Of a DNA stretch of 64,000 bases, positions 51,267 to 63,965 are shown one piece after another. Within the stretch, counting starts at the first letter, position 1. Each line of letters starts with the position of its first letter. The translations under genes were made by a program, and so were the position numbers. This DNA is from Candidatus Kapaibacterium sp. (lineage in GTDB: Bacteria > Bacteroidota > Ignavibacteria > Kapaibacteriales > UBA2268). The DNA lies in contig CALBDO010000008.1 in the NCBI GenBank assembly GCA_937927515.1, positions 86,434 to 150,433 of the forward strand, in the 5' to 3' direction. The notes under the pieces were generated by a model that had not been told where the DNA came from, searched no databases, and worked only from the letters and a program-made list of their open reading frames with translations.

Positions 51267-52490
51267 TTAATTTAATGCTGGATTGAACAATTTCCCCATG
51301 AACAAAATTGCACCAGAAGTTTGCTCGTATATGACATACACAAATGGCCTATTAAAATGAAATACTGGCTTAAAAGAAGTATAACTTATCTCAACAGAAG
51401 TTGCGGCGGAGGCTTCTGTGCCTTCTTCGTCGACTTCTATATAAGACTTATGCTTCACATCATTAATTGTACAACGCAAAGAGTTGCTAATACCAGAGAA
51501 GTCTGCATTATCGGTAAATGCAATGCTCATACCCATGGCTGAAAGGATTTCTTTCAAACCGACATCGAACACACACTTGAATTTTGGTATGTAGAGAGTC
51601 ACTTCCTTTGTTTCTTTTAGATTATTCAAACATCTTTCCCATTTGCTTCTATCGAAGGAATTTATAAATTCATTCACCAAGGTATTTGCATTCGGAAGTA
51701 TTAATAGCATTGCAATAGAACCTTTGCCATAAGGGAGCCGTATTGCAGAGAATTCATTGTCGGTGTAGCAGTAGAAATTGCGAATTTGCGTCATAAACTT
51801 TGTCTTCAAATAAGTTTCCTCGTTTTCATGGGGAATGGTAAAGTAACCGTCCTTGGTATTGTTTTTATCAAAGGTATATTTCCAAATCCCCTTGAAGTAA
51901 ATTGCATTAATAATGTACATAACAGCGTTGTAAGGGATTTCCTTGACAATTTCTTTGATTTTACCACTTGTTTTTTGTTCGACCCAATTATTAATTATGT
52001 TTTTTGCTTCGGGATTAGAAAAGTTCAGAACTTTGCAATAAGCATTGTAATAATTCTCTAAATCACTAAGAAACTTTTCGTTAAATTCAATACCCTCTTT
52101 TGCCCAAACCGAATTTGCAATTTTTAGGGTTACATTTTTGTCAATGTTTGACAAAAAAGGAATTATTTCTTTGAAAGCAGAGTTAATATCAACCATTGGG
52201 AACTTATCAAGTGCTAGCGTATTTCGCATCGCTTCGAAAGTTTCGCCCGATGCACCATTCATAGTCATACTCAAAGCAACAGATACACTCAATGGGGAGA
52301 TAAAAATATTACCTTCACTGCTGGTTTCGTTAACTTTTTTGAAGAGACGAAATGCAAAATCATTGCACGAAGATGTTACTAATTTTTCATTTTCCGTCAG
52401 TGGTCTAATAGGTGTAACAGCATCTGTAGTGGCTCTCTCGCAAGAAAGTAATATAAAAGCGGAGCAAAGAAAATAAATCAGTGGTTTCAT
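51267..52490 (-). CDS. Serpin family serine protease inhibitor, lipoprotein
   Basis: This serpin of 407 residues has a lipoprotein signal (LLSC, cysteine about residue 17), so it is probably tethered to the envelope. Serpin signatures are visible: NIFISPLSVSVALSMTMNGA near the start, NAIYFKGIWK in the shutter, and the C-terminal FNRPFVYVIYEQTSGAILFMG. The reactive centre loop is GTEASAATSVEISYT-SFKP. Aligned without gaps to the alpha-1-antitrypsin loop it puts P1 at Thr371 and P1' at Ser372, and the small-residue hinge (TEASAAT) fits an inhibitory serpin. It may protect against external or self proteases. It lies 52 bases behind the histidine kinase. Confidence 0.93.
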   Translation of the reverse strand: MKPLIYFLCSAFILLSCERATTDAVTPIRPLTENEKLVTSSCNDFAFRLFKKVNETSSEGNIFISPLSVSVALSMTMNGASGETFEAMRNTLALDKFPMVDINSAFKEIIPFLSNIDKNVTLKIANSVWAKEGIEFNEKFLSDLENYYNAYCKVLNFSNPEAKNIINNWVEQKTSGKIKEIVKEIPYNAVMYIINAIYFKGIWKYTFDKNNTKDGYFTIPHENEETYLKTKFMTQIRNFYCYTDNEFSAIRLPYGKGSIAMLLILPNANTLVNEFINSFDRSKWERCLNNLKETKEVTLYIPKFKCVFDVGLKEILSAMGMSIAFTDNADFSGISNSLRCTINDVKHKSYIEVDEEGTEASAATSVEISYTSFKPVFHFNRPFVYVIYEQTSGAILFMGKLFNPALN

Positions 52491-52542: not shown

Positions 52543-54729
52543 CTATTGAGTTTTGGGTAAGATAATGGATACATAATTGCCATCGGGGCCAAGAGTGTCG
52601 AATTTAGTTTGACCATTCAAAATTCTAATCATTGAAGCAAACAAGGATATATTTAGGAGAATATCGTCGATGTCGTATCTAATTGCTTCGATGAGATTAG
52701 TTAAATTTTCGTTGTAAAGAGTAATCATCTTCGAAACGCTTTGATTTGGTGAAGCAAGCAACTGAATTTCTACATTACCTTCGGCTTTGTTGTCGATTAT
52801 TTGAACTTGGAATTTTATTTCAGCCATGTCATAAATAAATGCAATGAAAAGATATTCAAACGCTCGTCTAAGTTCACTTCGGTCACTTGCTACAACGACA
52901 TTTAGACTCTCTTCCTCAAACTGCAAGTTAAGCCTTTTAGTTGGAAACTTCTTTAAGAAATTAACAACTGCTTCGTTCATCACATTGCAGATGTTAATAG
53001 TACTTAGAATTTTTGACCCCTCTTTGCCAAATTCTGCAACATCAAACAAATCTGTCGACGAGCTCAGTAGTTTCTGGGTTTCGGTTACTGCAAGGTCTAA
53101 AAATACCTTAGTCTCTTCATCAAAAGCTTTTTGATTTTGCAAGAGAATCTGGTGGTAACCAGAGATAGTAGTCAATGCATTGCGTAATTGATGGCTGAAT
53201 TTGTTCATAAAATAGGACTTAAATTCGCTGGCTTCGCGTGTTATCTGCTCGGCCAAAATCATTTGTTTAGCTTTGATACGTTCTTCAATTTCTGCACGCT
53301 TTTCAAGGGTTATATCACGACCAATTGCGTAAATTAGCCCCTCTGAAGGTGAGAAGGTAAAAGACCAATTAACCCAAATCTCCTCGCCATTCCTTTTTTT
53401 CATCAGATAATCTACTTTTTTAGTAAACTCACTCGATGCATTATCAAGCGACGAGTAGAAATCGTTCATATCCTTTGCATTGGCGAAGAGAGTATCGATT
53501 TTCATCCCTATTAATTCCGTTGGTTCATAGCCAAAAACTTGTGTAGAGGCAGGATTCATGGTTTTCCAGACACCATCAAAACCAGCCACTGCGATGATAT
53601 CCTTGGTGGATTCTAAAATACGCCTTTGCGAGCGGGTCATTCTTTCGGCAAGGTCGATTGCGCGAGCACGACTTGTAGTAATTGATAAAATTAACCCAAA
53701 GAAAACAAAAGATAGAAGTAGCGAAACACCCAAAGCAACCAAAGGTAAGTACTTCTGAAATGAACCACCAAAATCTGGCACAGTGGCAAAATAAATGTAA
53801 ATCTTTTTATCGAGAATGTCGAACTCTTCGGTCCGAGATAGAATAGGTCGATAGCCAGTTCTAAGCAAATCTGCGTTGTAAGAACTGAATAAACGAGTTT
53901 CTAATAAATCATTTTCTCTTTGGTAACAATAGAAAACAATTGTGGTATCACTCGAAACAAGAGCCCCAAGTGATTGTTTGAAGAAGGTTGATATATCAAT
54001 TTCCAACATAACGGCAGATTTGAAAGCTTCTCTTCTTTGTTTGTTATTAGCAATTGGAAAACTCCGGTCGTAGACGGGATAAATCAAAAACATACTTAAT
54101 GTATCGCCTCCACGAAAATGGAAAGCATTAGTAGCAGTCGGCTCGCCTTTTTCAATTGCAAATTGGAACCAATCGTTTAAACGCTCCACCGAGCTTATAT
54201 CCAAACCACGAAGATGTTTATTCCTTTCCTCTGGAATTATAAATTCAATGGGGTAATATACATTTTTATCTATGAAAGGATTAATCTTGTAATCGTAGTA
54301 ACCCTGGCCTTGCACGTAATAGAGGAATTCAGTGACCCTTGCACGAGGAACCTTCTGCACAGACATAACACCAAGAATCGACTTGTAAGTATTTGTTGGA
54401 ACAGAAGCGTAAAGTAAAAGATAGTCTCTTACAACCTGAACCAAGTTATCATATAAACCACGTATGGATGTTGCAACTTGTAAATGTATATTGTAGCCAA
54501 TTTGAAATCTGGTCAATACAGAACTAATTGCTTTATCGAATGCAGCTATGTTATCAGATTTGACTTTTTGTTGAAAGTTATAATAAATAAAAAAGCTTAG
54601 AGCCAGCATAAATAAAAGGATTATATAAGCGGGAAGAGAACGAGAGATGGAAAACACACTCTTTTTCTTTCTTGCTGCTTCTTTCAAAATTGTTTCGTAT
54701 GACGAAATTTCATTTTCAATTTTGCTCAT
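52543..54729 (-). CDS. Membrane histidine kinase (CHASE-PAS-HisKA) with degenerate ATPase domain
   Basis: From ATG 54729 (728 residues) the order is: membrane helix about 31-51, an extracytoplasmic CHASE domain about 70-290 (SILGVMSVQKVPRARVTEF, EFIIPEERNKHLRGLDI), a second helix about 327-353, a PAS domain about 371-476, and HisKA with phospho-acceptor His513 in NKFSHQLRN. The C-terminal ATPase region lacks the N-box asparagine (expected around LRRAFEYLFIAFIYD) and the glycine-rich G1 box, although a final GNYVSIILP strand is kept. The track's start adds 29 residues overlapping the response regulator. It begins just one base after that gene's stop, so they form a pair. Confidence 0.82.
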   Translation of the reverse strand: MSKIENEISSYETILKEAARKKKSVFSISRSLPAYIILLFMLALSFFIYYNFQQKVKSDNIAAFDKAISSVLTRFQIGYNIHLQVATSIRGLYDNLVQVVRDYLLLYASVPTNTYKSILGVMSVQKVPRARVTEFLYYVQGQGYYDYKINPFIDKNVYYPIEFIIPEERNKHLRGLDISSVERLNDWFQFAIEKGEPTATNAFHFRGGDTLSMFLIYPVYDRSFPIANNKQRREAFKSAVMLEIDISTFFKQSLGALVSSDTTIVFYCYQRENDLLETRLFSSYNADLLRTGYRPILSRTEEFDILDKKIYIYFATVPDFGGSFQKYLPLVALGVSLLLSFVFFGLILSITTSRARAIDLAERMTRSQRRILESTKDIIAVAGFDGVWKTMNPASTQVFGYEPTELIGMKIDTLFANAKDMNDFYSSLDNASSEFTKKVDYLMKKRNGEEIWVNWSFTFSPSEGLIYAIGRDITLEKRAEIEERIKAKQMILAEQITREASEFKSYFMNKFSHQLRNALTTISGYHQILLQNQKAFDEETKVFLDLAVTETQKLLSSSTDLFDVAEFGKEGSKILSTINICNVMNEAVVNFLKKFPTKRLNLQFEEESLNVVVASDRSELRRAFEYLFIAFIYDMAEIKFQVQIIDNKAEGNVEIQLLASPNQSVSKMITLYNENLTNLIEAIRYDIDDILLNISLFASMIRILNGQTKFDTLGPDGNYVSIILPKTQ

Positions 54730-54730
54730 T

Positions 54731-55117
54731 TTATTGATTTCTCTTTTTATTTTCAATGATTTTTTCAATATCTGAAACGAAAGAAGGAATATTAATTGGT
54801 TTGGACATATATCCATCGAAACCGGAGCTTAGCATCTTCTGTGCATCTCCGGGCTGGGCAAGTCCAGTAATAGCAATAATTGGAACTTTCTCTAAATTCT
54901 TCTTCGAGCGAATTTTGTTGAGCAACTCTATGCCATTAATATCTGGTAGCAGAACATCAGTTAGAATACAAATCGGAGTGTTTGATTCAAGCCAAACAAG
55001 GGCGCTATTTGCATCATAGAACTCAACTGCATTATAACCACTTTTTTGCAGTACTGTTGCAAATAATTTTGCAATGGACTTATTGTCCTCAATAATACAA
55101 ATTATTCCTTTTTCCAT
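54731..55117 (-). CDS. Single-domain response regulator (CheY-like receiver)
   Basis: This 128-residue receiver has acidic residues ED near 10-11, the phospho-acceptor aspartate in CILTDVLLPDINGIELL (about 54), the Thr switch in IIAITGLA and the Lys in MSKPINI. There is no output domain, so it works by protein contact or phosphotransfer. It is immediately upstream of, and probably cotranscribed with, the CHASE-PAS kinase; it is the likely phosphorylation partner. It lies 30 bases after the OmpA-family gene on the same strand. Confidence 0.92.
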   Translation of the reverse strand: MEKGIICIIEDNKSIAKLFATVLQKSGYNAVEFYDANSALVWLESNTPICILTDVLLPDINGIELLNKIRSKKNLEKVPIIAITGLAQPGDAQKMLSSGFDGYMSKPINIPSFVSDIEKIIENKKRNQ

Positions 55118-55147: not shown

Positions 55148-56539
55148 TTATTTAACAAGAAAAATTTCAACTCGTCGATTTTTCCTTCTGCCCTCTTCTG
55201 TTGTATTGTCTGCAATAGGATAAAAAGAAGAACGCGATGCACTTCGAATTCTTGAAGGGTTTACTTTCCTTGAAATTAAGTAGTTAACTACAGCTTGGGC
55301 TCGTAATCTACCACGCTCTGTATTTTGCTCCAATGTACCTTGGTTGTCCGAATGACCCTCCACAACTACTATGTAATCAGGATTAACTAACAAAAACTCT
55401 GCAAGAACATCCAATGTGTTTCGCATTGAAGGTGTAAGAGAAACAATGTCGGAACGAGTATATCCCTGTAAAACAATTTTTTGATTAGGATTAATCGTAA
55501 TTTTTTCTGGTGTTTCAACAATTTTTATTCCAGCTGAAATTTCATCTTCCTTTGTTAACGAGGCTTCCGCATAAACTTCAGAAGTAGGTACCACACTTAA
55601 TTCCAAAGAAGCAAATAATGGTGTTCTCTCAAAGCCAGAGAACATAATACCTCTTTTTGTAGTTGGAGGAGTTTGTACTATTGCCTCTGGTGGCTTCACA
55701 TATGTTGAATCATACTTCTTATAATCACTTTGTATTTCATCAGGCCCGAAAAGCAAGGAAAAACCACCTTTTATATGAAATGTGTTCAGATTTGAGGAAT
55801 AGCCACTAAATACGACTGTGCCATAATGTAGACTCAAAAAAGGTTTAGCCCTTACTCTAACGGTCTTTGAAATGTCCAAGAAAAGTAAATCCCATCCTGC
55901 TCCCAAGTGAAGATTTAAACGTAATCTTTTAGGATTAGCCGACAAAACCCAATCGGTGACAATTCTGGAACCATCTTTATACTCTACTTCTTGTAAACGC
56001 GATTTATCTCCAAAGAAGTATTCAAGGTCCAAACCACCAAAGGCGTGCAATCCTTCTATTGAAAAATTATATCTAACAGATGGCGAGAGCACCAAAGATT
56101 TAAAATCCAAAAGCAAAGCATACGTGTGCTCTTTCGAAAGTTCTGAATAGGAACGAACAAAACGGTTTTCCAAAATAGCAAATCTCAACATTCCTCCCCA
56201 GTGAGAACCTTTTGGTGAGTACTCTCCCGTTAAACCAAAAAGTACATTGACACCGTCCTTGCTCTCATGCAAAAGCAATCTATTCAGTGAATCACTCAAA
56301 GGTAGATATGGTCTTTCGGGTATCAACAGCTTCCCAATGTTAATGTTGTATGATAAATTAGTATAAGCACCAAACCACCAGTCTCCATAACTCCGGTTTA
56401 ATATTAAAGTATCTAAATTTGGCAAGACCTTGTAATCGAGAAAAGAACCGTAGGGAGCTTGTGCATAGGCTCGAGTTGCTATGAGAAATACAGACAATAC
56501 AACTACAAATCTTTTTTTCATCATTTCATTAAAAATCAT
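55148..56539 (-). CDS. OmpA-family outer-membrane protein
   Basis: A signal peptide (MKKRFVVVLSVFLIATRAYAQ) is followed by roughly 270 residues of outer-membrane barrel-like strands (MLRFAILENRF, LVLSPSVRYNFSIEGLHAFGG) and an Ile/Pro linker. A C-terminal OmpA domain spans about 350-463, with the peptidoglycan-binding Asp in GHSDNQG and Arg in GRLRAQAVV. The track start at 56539 overlaps the upstream stop as ATGA; ATGs at 56524 and 56521 would give a cleaner signal peptide. Coupling to the WD40 gene suggests the two proteins work together, perhaps as an anchor, which is inference. Confidence 0.87.
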   Translation of the reverse strand: MIFNEMMKKRFVVVLSVFLIATRAYAQAPYGSFLDYKVLPNLDTLILNRSYGDWWFGAYTNLSYNINIGKLLIPERPYLPLSDSLNRLLLHESKDGVNVLFGLTGEYSPKGSHWGGMLRFAILENRFVRSYSELSKEHTYALLLDFKSLVLSPSVRYNFSIEGLHAFGGLDLEYFFGDKSRLQEVEYKDGSRIVTDWVLSANPKRLRLNLHLGAGWDLLFLDISKTVRVRAKPFLSLHYGTVVFSGYSSNLNTFHIKGGFSLLFGPDEIQSDYKKYDSTYVKPPEAIVQTPPTTKRGIMFSGFERTPLFASLELSVVPTSEVYAEASLTKEDEISAGIKIVETPEKITINPNQKIVLQGYTRSDIVSLTPSMRNTLDVLAEFLLVNPDYIVVVEGHSDNQGTLEQNTERGRLRAQAVVNYLISRKVNPSRIRSASRSSFYPIADNTTEEGRRKNRRVEIFLVK

Positions 56540-58431
56540 TGGTAAATAATCAATTTCTTTGCCAAACTTGTAAAAGAAGTTTCCAAAACTATAATATACA
56601 ATCCGGAAGCAATATTTCGAGCATCAAGAGTTATTAAAGTCTCGGATGGATAACATTCTTTTTCCAGCAGCACCTTTACATGACCACTAATAGGATTTAT
56701 AAGCAGAAATTTACAAAAAATTGTTTTATCATTTTCAACTCTCAATTCAATCTTCCCTTCGTTATTATTATAATCAGCAAAAAAATTAACTTTCGGCATT
56801 AATTCAAATTTCATAAGGTTTGTTAAAGGTTTGCACACTTCAACAATTTCCACTGTTGCTGTGTCGAATATCCAAAGAATATTTTTCTTACCCCGAAAAT
56901 CAATGTGATTTATTTTAAATGTAGCTTTTCTATCTCCCCATGGATGCAAAGTATAAACATAAACAATTGCAAACGTATCAACATTAACAACGGAACGGAG
57001 CTTCGAATAGATTGTATCCTCCCAGCCAAATTTTAGAGCTTTATTTTCATCGTGATAGACACCAAAATGCTCGGCTGGCAACTGCAAAACAGCATATGAT
57101 GTATCATTGAAAAATCTATTCAAAGGTACTTCATAAATGTTTTTCAAAATTATAGGAAAACTCACAACCCTTCCAGCGTAAGACTGGATTGATGGATACA
57201 GTACCGAAATTGGAATAAAGTATGGTAAACTAAATTTCTGCTTAATATATTCAAACTCGAAGTTCTTATAAAGAGATATCTTCCCATTTCTCATTCCAAC
57301 CAAAAAGTAGGCGCCTCCACCTATGACTTTTAAAAAGGAAATGGCAGACTCCTCTTTCAATGGAATGTGCAACGAGATATTCAATGGGTAAAAAACTTGT
57401 GAAATTGTACTATCCAAAGAGACAGAAATCACCACAGGAACGACATCACAGAAATCAACACCTCGGATATGGAATGAATGTGAAGGGATGGAGTATTCCA
57501 GCTCTTTTGTTTTTAAATTATATATTCGGGATTTACCATCTATGCCACCAGCAATTACCAAAGTATCTTCGGGCGAGAAAGCCACAGACCAAACAACATT
57601 TTTATATGAATTATCGCGATTGGTGACAAACTCGGCTACTTTTTCATCAAGATTAATATCAAAAATTGTGACAATACCATCGTAATCACCTACGGCGAGA
57701 AGATATCCAGATTTAGAAAACTTTATGGAGTATATTTTTCGTTCCAGAGAGAATTTTTTAATTTCATTTAAATTTGAATCGAGTAGCACCACATCACCAG
57801 AAAAGGAGCCAAATGCAGTAAGTTTATTCTTTGGACAAACATCAATTGCCCTAATTAAAGCAGAAGAGCCCGAAACTCTTCGAAAAGAATTAGGTTTTTC
57901 AAAATCGTAAAGATAAATGGAACTATCGGCGGAAAAAATAACTTTCCTTGAACTAAAGAGAAATTTTGCAAAAAGTACTGGCTTTCCACTTGAATACGAG
58001 TCGATTAATTCTTGCTTTTCAGTACTCCAGATGCAAATCCTTCCATCAGAGGATGAAGATAACACCACACCTTCATCATCAAAATAATCAATCGAAGTTA
58101 TCTCAGTTGTATGAACATTTGGGGTTTTCCAAACCAAAATTGGATATGTAAAGTTAAGCGACTCATAATTAAAGAAAATGGAATCGATATCAGCAAGAGG
58201 AGGAAACCAACTGAAGGTTGTGCGATTAAAAAATCTACCAAGTTCAACCCAGTTACGATTGTCCAAGGAATATTCAAAGTATTGTATAGACAAAGTTTTG
58301 GTTTTGAAGTGAAAATCGACCTTACGACCAGCAATCAAAGAATCATCTAAAGTAGGATAAACAACTTGAGTGTAAATAAAATTTAAAGATACAAAGAAAA
58401 CAATAATGATTTGTGTAAAAAACCGAACCAC
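56536..58431 (-). CDS. WD40-repeat propeller protein with T9SS-type C-terminal tail
   Basis: A signal peptide (residues 1-21, ending FIYTQ) and a short beta domain precede WD40-like repeats from about residue 100 to 420, such as ITSIDYFDDEGVVLSSSSDGRICIWST, KIYSIKFSKSGYLLAVGDYDGIVTIFD written here in shortened form as YSIKFSKSGYLLAVGDY, and WSVAFSPEDTLVIAGG. After a further beta region the end resembles a type A sorting domain (ARNIASGLYIIVL, KKLIIYQ), so export by type IX secretion is likely. PorE-type proteins of Bacteroidota combine WD40 and OmpA domains in one chain; here they are neighbouring overlapping genes. It overlaps the OmpA gene by ATGA and is nine bases from the gene before it. 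Confidence 0.8.
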   Translation of the reverse strand: MVRFFTQIIIVFFVSLNFIYTQVVYPTLDDSLIAGRKVDFHFKTKTLSIQYFEYSLDNRNWVELGRFFNRTTFSWFPPLADIDSIFFNYESLNFTYPILVWKTPNVHTTEITSIDYFDDEGVVLSSSSDGRICIWSTEKQELIDSYSSGKPVLFAKFLFSSRKVIFSADSSIYLYDFEKPNSFRRVSGSSALIRAIDVCPKNKLTAFGSFSGDVVLLDSNLNEIKKFSLERKIYSIKFSKSGYLLAVGDYDGIVTIFDINLDEKVAEFVTNRDNSYKNVVWSVAFSPEDTLVIAGGIDGKSRIYNLKTKELEYSIPSHSFHIRGVDFCDVVPVVISVSLDSTISQVFYPLNISLHIPLKEESAISFLKVIGGGAYFLVGMRNGKISLYKNFEFEYIKQKFSLPYFIPISVLYPSIQSYAGRVVSFPIILKNIYEVPLNRFFNDTSYAVLQLPAEHFGVYHDENKALKFGWEDTIYSKLRSVVNVDTFAIVYVYTLHPWGDRKATFKINHIDFRGKKNILWIFDTATVEIVEVCKPLTNLMKFELMPKVNFFADYNNNEGKIELRVENDKTIFCKFLLINPISGHVKVLLEKECYPSETLITLDARNIASGLYIIVLETSFTSLAKKLIIYQ

Positions 58432-58439
58432 ATTAAGCT

Positions 58440-59723
58440 CTACCTAATTAATTGCAATTTAACAATTGCTCGTGAAATTTCAACAGTCGGGTCGTCTATC
58501 GGATAAGCAATAAATACAACGTTGTAGAGCCCTTCTTGCGCATTGTAGGAAGCAAGGAAATCAATGCTATGCTGTCCTTTTGGTGTATAGACACCTTTCA
58601 GCAAGTGTGTAACAATCCTGCCTTTTAAATCATTTACAAAAGCATCCAAGATAACATCATCTTCGACGATGTAATCAACTCGAGTAGATATACTAAATGG
58701 GTTTGGCGAAGGTGTTGCTTTTGTGATAATAGAATTTGGTATTCGTTCGCAATCATATGCAAGAGTTATTATATTGCCAAAGAAATCCTTATAAAGCAAT
58801 TTATAACAATACTCCAATCCTCTGTAAGCAACAGAATCAAATTCATAATGGTACGGTTTTCCGACAGAAGAAGTGCCCAAACCAACCAAAGTGCGGTTCA
58901 TTGGGTCGCTTCTACGGTAGTCGGCAACAGTATCAGAATAATAAATATCTTCAACATTTGGCTTTTCGGGGGTGCGTAAACCACGAACAACAATAAATCC
59001 ATCTACATATGCTTCTGATTGAGTTTCCCAAGATAGTCTTAATTTCTTCAGACCTACGTATTCTACATTGAAATACTTGAGAATTGTTTGGGGTGCGGGT
59101 GCTGTTGATGTAATAAAATTTACAAGGCTTCTTACTTTATCATCCATCTCAATATTGTCATTTACTTGCGCATAGTACATATTCGGCAAGAACAAACTAT
59201 CTTGGTCGAGTTTATAAGCACATGCTTGATAATATATGTATGGTTCGAGCCAACGTAGTTTCTGCGGGGGTAAAGTTCCATCCTTTGTTTTAATAACAAA
59301 TTTCCCGATTACTAATCCCTGGTCTGTTGAGGGAATGACACAGTCTTCGTAATTTTCTGGCCCTGCAATTGTGATACTGAAACGAAACGGTAGAACATTT
59401 GGAGTTACGATATAGCTTCGAGTGGGCAAAATCCCTGGTATAGCAACAATAGGCAAATCACTACTGCCAGGCAATAATTCAATTGTATGCCTATCGGGAG
59501 AAACATTGTAGCCAGCACTATCGAAAGCAAACTGAAAAGTAGCATTAGCGAAGTAAAGCCAGTTAGTGTTTACTCTTTGTAATCTCAAAACAAATTCAAG
59601 TTGATTACCCTTAGTCAATTTTACGCTATCCAAAACGACATTTGCATAATGCAAGGGCTGAGAAAATATATGATTTACGCAAAACAAAAGAATTATGGCA
59701 ATTGATTTTACAAAATTTTTCAT
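58440..59723 (-). CDS. Secreted protein with T9SS type A sorting domain
   Basis: I recognise only the ends. Residues 1-21 are a signal peptide (CVNHIFSQ), and the last ~85 residues form a type IX secretion C-terminal domain (TPSPNPFSISTRVDYIV, NDLKGRIVTHLL, GLYNVVFIAYP). Between them are two beta-rich regions, the first resembling a cohesin- or adhesion-type sandwich, the second a fibronectin type III-like segment near residues 210-270 (RLSWETQSEAYVDGFIVVRG). No catalytic motif was seen. It overlaps the dockerin-tailed gene by four bases and ends nine bases before the WD40 gene, so it belongs to the same operon. Confidence 0.78.
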   Translation of the reverse strand: MKNFVKSIAIILLFCVNHIFSQPLHYANVVLDSVKLTKGNQLEFVLRLQRVNTNWLYFANATFQFAFDSAGYNVSPDRHTIELLPGSSDLPIVAIPGILPTRSYIVTPNVLPFRFSITIAGPENYEDCVIPSTDQGLVIGKFVIKTKDGTLPPQKLRWLEPYIYYQACAYKLDQDSLFLPNMYYAQVNDNIEMDDKVRSLVNFITSTAPAPQTILKYFNVEYVGLKKLRLSWETQSEAYVDGFIVVRGLRTPEKPNVEDIYYSDTVADYRRSDPMNRTLVGLGTSSVGKPYHYEFDSVAYRGLEYCYKLLYKDFFGNIITLAYDCERIPNSIITKATPSPNPFSISTRVDYIVEDDVILDAFVNDLKGRIVTHLLKGVYTPKGQHSIDFLASYNAQEGLYNVVFIAYPIDDPTVEISRAIVKLQLIR

Positions 59724-61798
59724 GGTAAAAATGTTTTTCTACCTCGATTATTAATAGAATAATTTAAATCTCTTGTAGTTATAATTCCATCGAGATTTGT
59801 ATCCCAGATAAGGTATCCCTCGAAATCTCTTTCAGTCCATATATTTATCTGGTCGAATAAATCAATGACGCCATCAGCATTAACATCGCCAGCTGGTAAA
59901 CCAAAAACTAAACCAGAGGGTGTCTTTGCAAGTGGTTTAAGAGCATTTTCTCGTCCCATAACAAGTTCTGGCTTTGTGAAATCTATAGTGGCAACAAAAG
60001 AGCCTCTCTTCAAATTGACCTTTTCCTCTGTAACAACGGATAGGTGATTTCTATGTAAAATTGCGATGTAGTATGCAGTTGCTTGTGTATCAAATTTGAT
60101 TTGCATGTCGGTAAGAGGATACTCCCCATTTCTTCCAATTATTCTGCCGTCACTGGTTAAAAACCCAGTATAAACAATAGGTTTTGGGTCGGTTAATGTT
60201 CGACGAAATTCAATAACAATCCAATCTACGATTGAATCTGGGAATTGGCTCACAAAAATTTTCCCCCTATCAGGGTCGCGATTGTATGGGAAAATGTCTG
60301 GCGGTGTATTTGGCAAAGAATTTTTTGCCTGTAAATCATTTGCCATAATACCATTACGCCAAGCTCCCTCTAAAATTGCTTTACCTTTGAAAGCAAATGG
60401 ATAGAGATACGAGCTTCCAATCGCAAAATCGCCGCTTTGCACCCGTGTGGAGGATTTGACCACATTATATGCCCAACCGTTAAGGGTATCAAATTGAACA
60501 ACGTCTTCCTCCCCGACATCTACCCAGTTCGACCCATCCCACCATTGAAGTTTCAACTTGTAAACATCAAGTCCATTCGTTTCATCTACGGAGGTATCTG
60601 ATGAATGCCTCCACCCATAACCAACAATCGGATAGAATTCTGGTATTAAGTCTCCAGATGAGTTTCTTGGGAAAATAGAAATCTGTCTGCGAACTTTTGT
60701 ATCCCCAAATGCCCAGTTTGGATGCCGCCTTGGCTTTACACGAAAAGTAACTTCAGATGCACCATTTTTGTTATTTTCATTGGTAAAAATTAAATACGTA
60801 TAAAGATTGTTAAATAGAATTGGTGTAGAGTCTGCTCTTAAAGATGTTCTGCGAAAGCTGCCATCAATTTCCGCTTGTGCATTTAAAAACTGAGGATTTG
60901 TTTCTGATGTAAGCGTAAGAGTGTACCATGTGCTATCGTCGGGCTCGGTATAAATACTTGAAAGTAAGCGTAGTGAATCATTAACTGTAACATTCTTTGA
61001 AAGAACAAGCCCACCACTATTGCGCACGTCGAGATTGCCCAATATATTAGCTTCGTCTGGTAATTCACCTCCACTGACTATCGTACCATTACCCCTGTAT
61101 TCGACATCAACACGTTTTCCAAAAACTGGAGTTGTAGCCAGGGATGCTCCAGAGTAACGCACAATTTTGGCAGAATCGCCTAAATAAAAATTTGTCGATG
61201 CTGAATTAATAAATTCACCACGAGAAAGAATTAACAGATAATCCACTTTGAAACCACCACCTCGAATTACCACCGCTCCAAAGGGATTATCCAAGTGCAG
61301 AACTGGAAAGTTTCCAGTACCCCAAATATCCTGCCACTTGGCACCGGCAAGTCGAATTTCTTTATCTCCAAAAATACTGCTTGTATTTGCAACAGGACCA
61401 AGCGCCCAGATATCTCCACGAAACAGATTTATACGCGCAGAGTCTGTCAACAGCAAACTATCCCTTGCTACCAATGGCAGTGGGTTATTTCCAAACTTAC
61501 GCACAGGGTCGATGATTTTCAACCCAGCACCACTAATCACAAGTTGATTGTAAACAATATTTGGCACCTCTTGTGTAAAAGCGGGGCAGGTAGCTGTATA
61601 TTCAAATCGTCCATCAATTGTATCATTTAAATTTTTTACCTGACCAGCACGAACACGGATTGTGCCTAAATTATTGATTGTTCCACCAGTATTGTCCAGA
61701 GTTATACCCTGTGCATCGAGAATGTAAATAGTCAAGAAAAAAACAATCAGCTTAATTATCATTTTCTTGACTATCTGTATTTGCCCTTCAAAGTTCAT
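59720..61798 (-). CDS. Surface protein with dockerin-like C-terminal calcium repeats
   Basis: The 692-residue product starts with a hydrophobic signal (MIIKLIVFFLTIYILDAQ if ATG 61762 is used; the track ORF starts at 61798). A repetitive beta-rich body follows, beginning ITLDNTGGTINNLGTIRVRAG. The end has two EF-hand-like calcium loops, GDVNADGVIDLFDQINI and DTNLDGIITTRDLNY, the type I dockerin pattern. No cohesin gene is recognisable in the window; in FCB bacteria dockerin-like ends are also found on T9SS-associated proteins. The N-terminus resembles that of the upstream protein. It overlaps the following gene by ATGA. Confidence 0.75.
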   Translation of the reverse strand: MNFEGQIQIVKKMIIKLIVFFLTIYILDAQGITLDNTGGTINNLGTIRVRAGQVKNLNDTIDGRFEYTATCPAFTQEVPNIVYNQLVISGAGLKIIDPVRKFGNNPLPLVARDSLLLTDSARINLFRGDIWALGPVANTSSIFGDKEIRLAGAKWQDIWGTGNFPVLHLDNPFGAVVIRGGGFKVDYLLILSRGEFINSASTNFYLGDSAKIVRYSGASLATTPVFGKRVDVEYRGNGTIVSGGELPDEANILGNLDVRNSGGLVLSKNVTVNDSLRLLSSIYTEPDDSTWYTLTLTSETNPQFLNAQAEIDGSFRRTSLRADSTPILFNNLYTYLIFTNENNKNGASEVTFRVKPRRHPNWAFGDTKVRRQISIFPRNSSGDLIPEFYPIVGYGWRHSSDTSVDETNGLDVYKLKLQWWDGSNWVDVGEEDVVQFDTLNGWAYNVVKSSTRVQSGDFAIGSSYLYPFAFKGKAILEGAWRNGIMANDLQAKNSLPNTPPDIFPYNRDPDRGKIFVSQFPDSIVDWIVIEFRRTLTDPKPIVYTGFLTSDGRIIGRNGEYPLTDMQIKFDTQATAYYIAILHRNHLSVVTEEKVNLKRGSFVATIDFTKPELVMGRENALKPLAKTPSGLVFGLPAGDVNADGVIDLFDQINIWTERDFEGYLIWDTNLDGIITTRDLNYSINNRGRKTFLP

Positions 61799-61823
61799 AA
61801 CTCATCCATTAAATTTAAATTAT

Positions 61824-61851
61824 TCCCTACCCCCGAAATTGGGGGTAGGGA
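61824..61851 (-). terminator. Strong hairpin between the two surface-protein genes (terminator or attenuator)
   Basis: The arms TCCCTACCCCC and GGGGGTAGGGA are an 11-bp perfect inverted repeat around a six-base loop, the most GC-rich stem in the window. It begins about 11 bases after the stop of the 700-residue protein and 26 bases before the next ATG. The downstream minus-strand sequence is ATAATTTAAATTT rather than a U-tract, so partial termination or mRNA protection is as likely as full termination. Confidence 0.55.
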
Positions 61852-61862
61852 TGAAATCGATA

Positions 61863-63965
61863 TTATTGGCAAACACCTATTTCGAGAATGCTCTTGTTCA
61901 TAATTGAACCATTGTTGGTGAGGCTCAAAGTACCAAGCACTGGTATAAATTGGCTTTGTGGTCGTATCCAAATACCGTTCAAACCAGTGGCACTACTACC
62001 ATCACCATCTCCAGTATTAGCATTTGTGTTGAGGTTGAATATTCCGGGTTGTGGGAAACCAGTAACTTGAACTAAACGAGTACGGAAGATTCTTTCTGAA
62101 GTCCCCATTGTTGCGTCTTGATTACCAATAACCAACGCAGCACCAGAAACATTTGCAATGGTAATACTATTTGCAGCTGCACCGGCATCACCATTATTGC
62201 TGCCATCAATCTCATCATCAGCCCAAGCAGAGCCACCGAAAACTGCTTGATCGATACCAGTCCAAACTACTGTACGTATTTCGACATCGTCGTTTGCGGT
62301 TGGTACATAACCGACATCCCAGGTACCAGGATTAGTCCATCGTCCATTGGTTACAGACACAATCAGCATTGGGGTTGCAGTAAGAATGATATTAGAGCCG
62401 TCAGACAATTCTTGGGTTGTACCACCACCTGGTGCTGATATTAAGTTAATTCCAGGACCAGACCCACCAGCATACAAAATATTCTTTGGAGCTGTAAGGT
62501 TCCTAGTGTAGATATTACCAACTCGAATTAACTTTTGATGATTTGCGGTGTTGCTGTAGCCTTCGGCAAATCGCATCAAGCTTTCATCCGCATTGAAGGA
62601 GGCATCTTTATCGCTATCTTCATAATAAATTCTCAGAGAGCTAATCGTCCCAGTTCCATTAAAGTTTGCAGTGATAGAACGACGGATATCGGTAGCGTTG
62701 TTAAAGTTGTTTAAATTGCTCGGAACCGTCTGCTGGCGAACATCGAGCTGGAACCAAGTTGGTACGGTAGAAAATGCAACTTGAGTATTAGCATTATTGA
62801 ATGTATAAGTATTGCCCGCCGTCATATTTTGCCATCGGAACTTACCACGAACCTCGACATTCCCAGTATAGCTAGCAGATGCAGTTCCATTTGAATTCAA
62901 CATAGTAAGAATATAGTCGTTTGCACCGGGTGCCATATCAACTTCTTGTGAAACACTTAAATTGTTACATACATTAACATTGCCACCAGCGGTTTTGTCT
63001 CCAGTTCCAATAAGGTACAAATTACCATAGGAAGCAAAATATGTAACATCATTGCCTAATATGGTCTGTGGGCCACCAGAATAGTAGAAGTTTGAAGCGC
63101 AATCAAAGGTGATATTTCCACCAGATTGTGTGAAATTGCCATTCAAATAAACATTGGTATTTGCTGCAAGATTGAATGCTCCATTTTGGTTTGCAAAATT
63201 ATTGAACGTGACGTTGCCAGCACCATTATTAACATAAACACCTCCACCAGCACCACTGGCATTATTTGTAAAGTCCACACTGCTCGTAAATGTACCAGAA
63301 CCGCTGAAGTTCCAAGTTCCATTATTAGTAATGTTAGCATCGGCAGTACTTGGTTGAGTATTGTTTAGATTAAAGGTACCGTTGTTTGTCAAAGCGCCAC
63401 TAGTGTTGCTAAGAGTAAATGTGTTCGCGACACTGGCTGTTGTACCAGAAGCAATTTCTTTCGTAGAGCCACCCGTTAAGACCAAGGAGTAGTAACCAGT
63501 ACCGTTACTTGTATTTTCCCCAGCAACAACTTGATTGCCGCTTGTACCGTTATAAGTAACTGTAACTGCATTAGTTGTGTAATCTCGGTTACCACCTTGT
63601 GGATTGTATGTACCAGAAATGAACACGTCTTCGAGGAAAGTCTTTACACCTGCATCGGCAGTTCCTAAATTAGTGTAGTAAGTCGGCTGATAATTACCAC
63701 TTTGGTAAAGACCTCCAACGTTCATATTACTAGAGCAATACCAAATTACTGTACCTGGGACGGGATTCGAAGCTGTTCCATAAGGAGCTGTACCATCAAA
63801 TTTTCCACCGCTCGAGCGCATACGGATAGTTCCACCACCAGTACCAACCTGGTAAGTACCGCCCGTATTATTTGTAAAGTCTTGAGCAAAGACTTCGGAA
63901 AATGCAAACGCAAGAAGAAGAAAAAAGACAAGTAAAACGATGAATTTGTGGTTTTTTCGAGACAT
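61863..63965 (-). CDS. Large secreted Gly/Asn/Thr-rich repeat protein (surface or adhesin-like)
   Basis: The 700-residue product starts with a clear signal peptide (FLLLAFAFSEVFAQ) and a low-complexity beta-solenoid-like body, for example SGALTNNGTFNLNN and NQNGAFNLAANTNVYL. Its composition is dominated by Asn, Gly, Thr and Ser, with few charged residues. The C-terminus, GSIMNKSILEIGVCQ, shows no T9SS tail or membrane anchor. The first ~40 mature residues (DFTNNTGGTYQVGTGGGTIRMRSS) resemble those of the next gene's product. AGGAG nine bases before the ATG supports the start. A surface-adhesin or S-layer-type role is inferred; there is no clear homologue I can name. Confidence 0.7.
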   Translation of the reverse strand: MSRKNHKFIVLLVFFLLLAFAFSEVFAQDFTNNTGGTYQVGTGGGTIRMRSSGGKFDGTAPYGTASNPVPGTVIWYCSSNMNVGGLYQSGNYQPTYYTNLGTADAGVKTFLEDVFISGTYNPQGGNRDYTTNAVTVTYNGTSGNQVVAGENTSNGTGYYSLVLTGGSTKEIASGTTASVANTFTLSNTSGALTNNGTFNLNNTQPSTADANITNNGTWNFSGSGTFTSSVDFTNNASGAGGGVYVNNGAGNVTFNNFANQNGAFNLAANTNVYLNGNFTQSGGNITFDCASNFYYSGGPQTILGNDVTYFASYGNLYLIGTGDKTAGGNVNVCNNLSVSQEVDMAPGANDYILTMLNSNGTASASYTGNVEVRGKFRWQNMTAGNTYTFNNANTQVAFSTVPTWFQLDVRQQTVPSNLNNFNNATDIRRSITANFNGTGTISSLRIYYEDSDKDASFNADESLMRFAEGYSNTANHQKLIRVGNIYTRNLTAPKNILYAGGSGPGINLISAPGGGTTQELSDGSNIILTATPMLIVSVTNGRWTNPGTWDVGYVPTANDDVEIRTVVWTGIDQAVFGGSAWADDEIDGSNNGDAGAAANSITIANVSGAALVIGNQDATMGTSERIFRTRLVQVTGFPQPGIFNLNTNANTGDGDGSSATGLNGIWIRPQSQFIPVLGTLSLTNNGSIMNKSILEIGVCQ

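Follow-up and report, generated by a model that had tools for sequence, protein, structure and literature searches.

A cluster of seven genes, g1 to g7, from an uncultured Candidatus Kapaibacterium sp. is conserved in gene set and order throughout one uncultured order of the Kapaibacteria, far beyond chance. The window analyzed here is the whole 64,000-nucleotide stretch of DNA at the end of contig C8 (CALBDO010000008.1; G000:C8:86434-150433) of assembly GCA_937927515.1, a genome of 2.39 Mb whose closest named relatives are Candidatus Kapaibacterium sp. Ch6 (CP058732) and the metagenome-assembled genome SKW251. The genes encode two Gly/Asn/Thr-rich proteins (g1 and g2), a protein with a predicted beta-sandwich (g3), a WD40 protein (g4), an outer-membrane barrel protein (g5), a lone receiver domain (g6) and a histidine-kinase-like protein (g7; Table 1). 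We put the chances at about even that they form part of an operon that encodes a multi-protein surface fibre or adhesin and has been retained across the order. A more specific and distinctly tentative proposal is that the fibre is built by a cohesin-dockerin system anchored through the type IX secretion system (T9SS), and is not a cellulosome, with g3 as receptor, g2 as docking partner, g5 as anchor and the ATPase-less CHASE protein g7 as readout.

The genomes of this order compared here are for the most part drafts, used without annotation, and gene order was surveyed in 43 loci with gene calls (longest open reading frames, ORFs) and profile searches. The order that recurs is g1-g2-g3-(g4)-g5-g6-g7. 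Either g2 or a g1+g2 fusion lies directly upstream of g3 in 40 of the 41 testable loci, which span ten families, while g5 follows g3 or g4 in 36 loci; g6 and g7 both come next in 19, and one of the two in several others. Profile matches to g3 (E ≤ 1e-6) were found in 121 of 123 genomes of the order and in all of its genera (51/51). Most of the strong matches are near the full length of the profile; in a minority of genomes the profile meets just the tail half, in other long proteins. Full-length g2 is confined to this order among the 396 genomes of the phylum that were searched, and elsewhere only its C-terminal module (~columns 460–687) or short pieces are matched. In families f7 and f9, g1 and g2 are fused or merged.

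The original prediction for this DNA was a conserved surface-structure operon, an idea that a lack of conserved gene order in relatives would have undone; with g2 beside g3 in 40 of 41 loci, it has survived strongly. The same survey disposes of the view that unrelated secreted proteins and an unrelated two-component pair are neighbors by chance. Secreted T9SS proteins are indeed common in this genome (75 sorting tails), but the order recurs in ~40 loci of ten families, genes have fused, and the loss of g6 is linked to loss of the g7 histidine; chance is scarcely credible and is already refuted by the conservation. Literature searches, made on titles and abstracts in an incomplete collection of papers, turned up no account of this operon.

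Contig C8 ends 35 bp before g1, and the upstream part of the operon is missing from the window. In the complete genome G002 (L188), g1 is preceded by a 4,128-residue giant protein rich in Gly, Asn, Thr and Ser. Also upstream there are a 1,045-residue protein starting with 'NVGIGTTTP', which we take to resemble tail-fibre proteins (its Phage Tail Collar match is weak, E 2e-4), and a pair of response regulators, of which one has a LuxR-type helix-turn-helix. The window's own genome carries the giant (open frame of 4,129; G000:C27 ~79007-91396) at the end of contig C27, together with the second, tail-fibre-like protein (open frame of 1,047; ~75856-78999; loci L200 and L201). After the giant, the end of C27 (L201) holds the beginning of a variant g1, which shows 92% identity to the end of C8 over 204 bp, so the giant-g1 junction is present in this genome too; the break between C8 and C27 probably reflects strain variation at the locus in the source population. 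The giant protein ends in 'IEIG', and no tandem repeats were found in it. In many relatives whose contigs reach far enough, large proteins of this kind lie ahead of g1, and in families f2, f3 and f9 a small gene (~125–165 residues) whose C-terminus is of the 'IEIG/EVG' type, like those of g1 and the giant, precedes g1 (L161, L176, L162-L165, L171).

The operon is thus longer than the five genes g1 to g5: the giant and tail-fibre-like genes upstream and g6 and g7 downstream belong to it. The upstream proteins fit a fibre. They also bear on a surface layer or sheath, in which g1, g2 and the giant would make up an unbroken coat, with g3 and g5 holding it. This we consider rather unlikely: Gly/Asn/Thr-rich secreted proteins are conserved order-wide, as a structural coat might be, and there is a peptidoglycan-binding anchor, but the tail-fibre-like and ~4,000-residue upstream proteins favor fibres, and apart from these, coat and fibre are not separable here.

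Within the window, the five co-directional, tightly packed genes of the original prediction were found as described, on the minus strand (Table 1). The g1/g2 and g3/g4 gaps are 64 and 8 bp, g2/g3 and g4/g5 each overlap by 4 bp, and g5/g6 are 30 bp apart. The likely start of g7 is the ATG at 54729, which is common to relatives and lies 1 bp after g6. The receiver and kinase had been described as following downstream; both are members of the conserved cluster and not just its neighbors. ORFs were called mechanically as the longest ORFs, signal peptides were judged by eye, and we infer transcription as an operon from the spacing. Scans for promoters (48 vs. 40.6 expected from shuffling, standard deviation 6.5) and terminators (8 vs. 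8.1) gave about what shuffled sequence gives. In members of the genus whose contigs extend far enough, the next gene after g7, co-directional with it, encodes a serpin (window 51267-52490); none was seen there in other genera.

Table 1. Features of the gene cluster. Positions are those of the window (position 1 is its first letter); residue numbers refer to the encoded protein.
Feature	Position	Strand	Description
g1	61863..63965	-	Secreted protein, 700 aa, Gly/Asn/Thr/Ser-rich (45%), signal peptide
g2	59720..61798	-	692 aa; the first ~400 aa are paralogous to g1; dockerin-like EF-hand pair at C-terminal end
g2 EF-hand/dockerin-type loops, two (DVNADGVIDLFD, DTNLDGIITTRD)	59768..59887	-	
g3	58440..59723	-	427 aa; beta-sandwich at the N-terminus, a middle domain, and a T9SS sorting domain at the C-terminus
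g3 N-terminal domain, residues 23-169	59216..59657	-	Predicted cohesin-like fold
g3 C-terminal T9SS sorting domain, divergent	58440..58736	-	TIGR04183 matches in orthologues; hhalign to g4 tail
g4	56536..58431	-	Signal peptide, WD40 propeller (~residues 100-345), C-terminal T9SS sorting domain; GTG start
g5	55148..56539	-	Outer-membrane beta-barrel and OmpA peptidoglycan-binding domain (residues 367-455)
g6	54731..55117	-	Stand-alone receiver domain
g7	52543..54729	-	CHASE-PAS-HisKA protein, no ATPase domain detectable

The genome is T9SS-bearing, with SprA_N and 75 sorting tails above cut-off. Type A sorting was tested as a signal peptide plus a C-terminal TIGR04183 or PF18962 match above cut-off. 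The window copy of g3 has no match to the T9SS tail model and that of g4 falls below cut-off (E 0.098). Among orthologues, however, 6 of 16 for g3 match TIGR04183 (best 1.2e-4) and 15 of 16 for g4 match the T9SS export tail (best 3e-13), and the g3 and g4 tails align with each other (hhalign 95.9%). The earlier assignment of T9SS tails to both proteins is supported by orthologues and mutual homology, though not by the window copies on their own.

The N-terminal domain of g3 is predicted to be cohesin-like in fold. Its AlphaFold model, made from three close sequences (the window copy, L040 and L041), has a predicted local distance difference test score (pLDDT) of 81; a full-length model (pLDDT 43) was not used. 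Cohesins or cohesin-like modules make up 26 of the first 30 Foldseek matches to the domain (best match E 1.2e-3, probability 1.00, template-modeling score 0.44), and the other four are entries for CelQ, which we take to be an enzyme with a CBM3-type module. Searches by sequence gave no PDB relative of g3 by profile, and g3 was not among the PF00963 matches listed.

The proposed partner of this domain is the tail of g2. Both EF-hand loops are canonical in the window copy (DVNADGVIDLFD, DTNLDGIITTRD); by pattern, two loops are recognized in 14 of 41 homologues and one in 24, usually the second, which is far better conserved. Pfam Dockerin_1 (PF00404) matches 4 of 12 members weakly, with a best E of 0.14, below cut-off, and one orthologue has an EF-hand match (E 4e-4). 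A PDB sequence-profile search with g2 gave weak matches only, among them 5lxv_B (E 0.39) in the tail region. The "dockerin tail" first read from the sequence is supported by its two loops but only weakly by the family model. The C-terminal module that contains the tail (~columns 460–687; window ~59723-60421) also ends with an 'NNRGR' motif, and it occurs, with matches up to E 1e-46, in long proteins from other orders and classes of the phylum. Judged from sequence, it may be a general Bacteroidota C-terminal module.

In the rest of their length, g1 and g2 are paralogues over ~370 columns (hhalign 98%, E 2.7e-13), and neither matches a Pfam family over its main part. The C-terminus of g1, 'NNGSIMNKSILEIG', is of a kind seen also in the giant upstream protein, and no sorting tail was found in g1. 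The pair had been called repeat proteins, a loose label: both are Gly/Asn/Thr-rich, but no tandem repeats were found.

The likeness to cohesin-dockerin modules (type II cohesins) lies in the predicted fold of the g3 domain, the EF-hand-pair tail of g2 and the adjacency of the two genes. The differences are that g3 has no sequence-profile match, the first g2 loop is often degenerate, the context is that of a T9SS, and there are no enzymes. The last point also bears on a cellulosome-type scaffold, cell-bound and degrading or binding polysaccharide, as a reading of the cluster. The dockerin-like tail of g2 and the CBM-type modules found by Foldseek besides cohesins would suit it, but the scanned cluster proteins contain no glycosidase domain and each operon has one cohesin-like domain (g3) and one dockerin-like partner, and we regard such a scaffold as quite improbable.

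The remaining surface component is g5. Its OmpA domain (PF00691, E 5.1e-17, 62 bits vs. a cut-off of 27) and the WD40 domain of g4 are both certain from the domain search. Anchoring to peptidoglycan, as originally proposed, is likely here but is not universal, as the g5 of family f2 shows. Cargo of T9SS type B is held by PorP-like barrels in the SprF-SprB and PorE-PorP-PG1035 systems (PMC9143113). The cluster resembles these in placing the gene for a T9SS-exported protein beside that for an outer-membrane barrel, its likely holder, and in having an OmpA peptidoglycan-binding domain on the inner side. It differs in that barrel and OmpA domain of g5 share one chain, the barrel matches no NCBIfam model, and the tail of g3 resembles type A rather than type B. 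For seven barrel portions, no match to NCBIfam, including its PorP-family model, was found even at E ≤ 10, and a place for the g5 barrel in the PorP/SprF family is not supported.

PorE of Porphyromonas gingivalis, a periplasmic lipoprotein with TPR, WD40, CRD and OmpA domains (PMC7192894), was the point of comparison in the original prediction, where the WD40 protein g4 and the OmpA protein g5 were seen as separate but adjacent counterparts of its domains. Taken literally, the two would be a separated PorE-like core, together bridging T9SS and peptidoglycan. The two domain types are indeed present, in adjacent genes that overlap by 4 bp, and the g5 OmpA part matches the PorE model NF052230 locally. 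Nevertheless, both proteins are below the cut-off of that model, TPR and CRD were not found in either, and two single chains in the same genome match PorE far better (204 and 173 bits). Furthermore, only some members of family f1 have g4 between g3 and g5, and in most families it is missing from this place. Since g4 bears a T9SS export tail, it should lie outside the cell, opposite the periplasmic OmpA domain of g5, whereas PorE is a periplasmic lipoprotein (PMC7192894). A split PorE is largely refuted by this distribution, and we hold it to be very unlikely. On the g3 tree, the presence of g4 is clustered, a pattern that takes a minimum of two gains or losses; g4, an insertion found in a single family, would serve there as an accessory surface module. 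Away from the g1–g5 cluster, families f5 and f8 have their best WD40 homologue beside a gene whose product starts with 'MxFLNPxVL' (L080, L081, L086, L096) and presumably resembles BatA-type proteins.

The two downstream genes appear to form a signaling pair. The phospho-acceptor region of g6 ('TDVLLPD') is conserved in 24 of 24 rows. CHASE and PAS domains were found in all 13 members of g7 searched and HisKA in 12, while HATPase_c was absent from all 13 at E ≤ 1 and no N/G boxes were seen in the alignment. The phospho-acceptor histidine of HisKA is present in the window copy and in 18 of 24 rows. All 4 loci without g6 have lost it, as opposed to 2 of 20 with g6 (Fisher p = 0.0014, or 0.006 if two f3 loci count once), numbers that are small and stem from few events, with shared descent not fully corrected. 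The association fits g7 and g6 working together through this histidine.

With no ATPase domain, g7 should not autophosphorylate. It more likely receives phosphate from g6, or binds in a phospho-specific way as DivL of Caulobacter does. DivL, a histidine kinase turned to another use, binds a single-domain regulator (PMC4211667), and like g7 it is a PAS and HisKA-type protein with a stand-alone receiver and no kinase activity expected. It retains an ATPase-like domain, whereas g7 has no detectable HATPase_c. DivL is not known to have the acceptor histidine, which g7 keeps in most members.

The gene set with its order, the export signals and the homologies are observed results, and on them a working scheme can be built. 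In it, g3 would be exported by the type IX system and retained at the outer face, where its cohesin-like N-terminal domain would receive the dockerin-like tail of g2; this docking is put forward as a hypothesis. The g2 and g1 proteins, with the giant Gly/Asn-rich and tail-fibre-like proteins, would form a fibre directed outward. In the outer membrane, the g5 barrel would partner g3 in the way PorP-like barrels partner type B cargo (PMC9143113), and its OmpA domain, where present, would tie the assembly to peptidoglycan. Together, g6 and g7 would convey an external signal, in which g7 probably passes phosphate to g6, takes it from g6, or binds to g6.

Several observations weigh against this assembly. 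None of the cluster proteins has been characterized. The g5 of three f2 genomes is a barrel without the OmpA domain, and most f7 loci have no g5 beside g3. No T9SS tail that would account for passage across the outer membrane was found on g1, g2 or the giant. For the docking step in particular, many g2 orthologues have a degenerate first EF-hand loop, and other Bacteroidota that lack this operon also have the C-terminal module of g2. The cohesin-like model of g3 comes from three close sequences and reaches a template-modeling score of only 0.44; by sequence, a true cohesin was rejected (hhalign 0.3% against 26 cohesins from the order, with a positive control at 99.5%). The small histidine-loss counts belong here as well.

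If the proposed assembly is correct, it would be the first defined surface structure for an uncultured, widespread lineage of Bacteroidota, built in part from g1, g2 and g3, protein families whose main parts have no Pfam counterpart. It would also offer a small model of how a partner with barrel and OmpA domain keeps T9SS cargo at the surface, and might be a case of cohesin-dockerin docking outside enzyme scaffolds. The cluster adds, moreover, a conserved histidine-kinase-like protein without an ATPase domain that is paired with a lone receiver.

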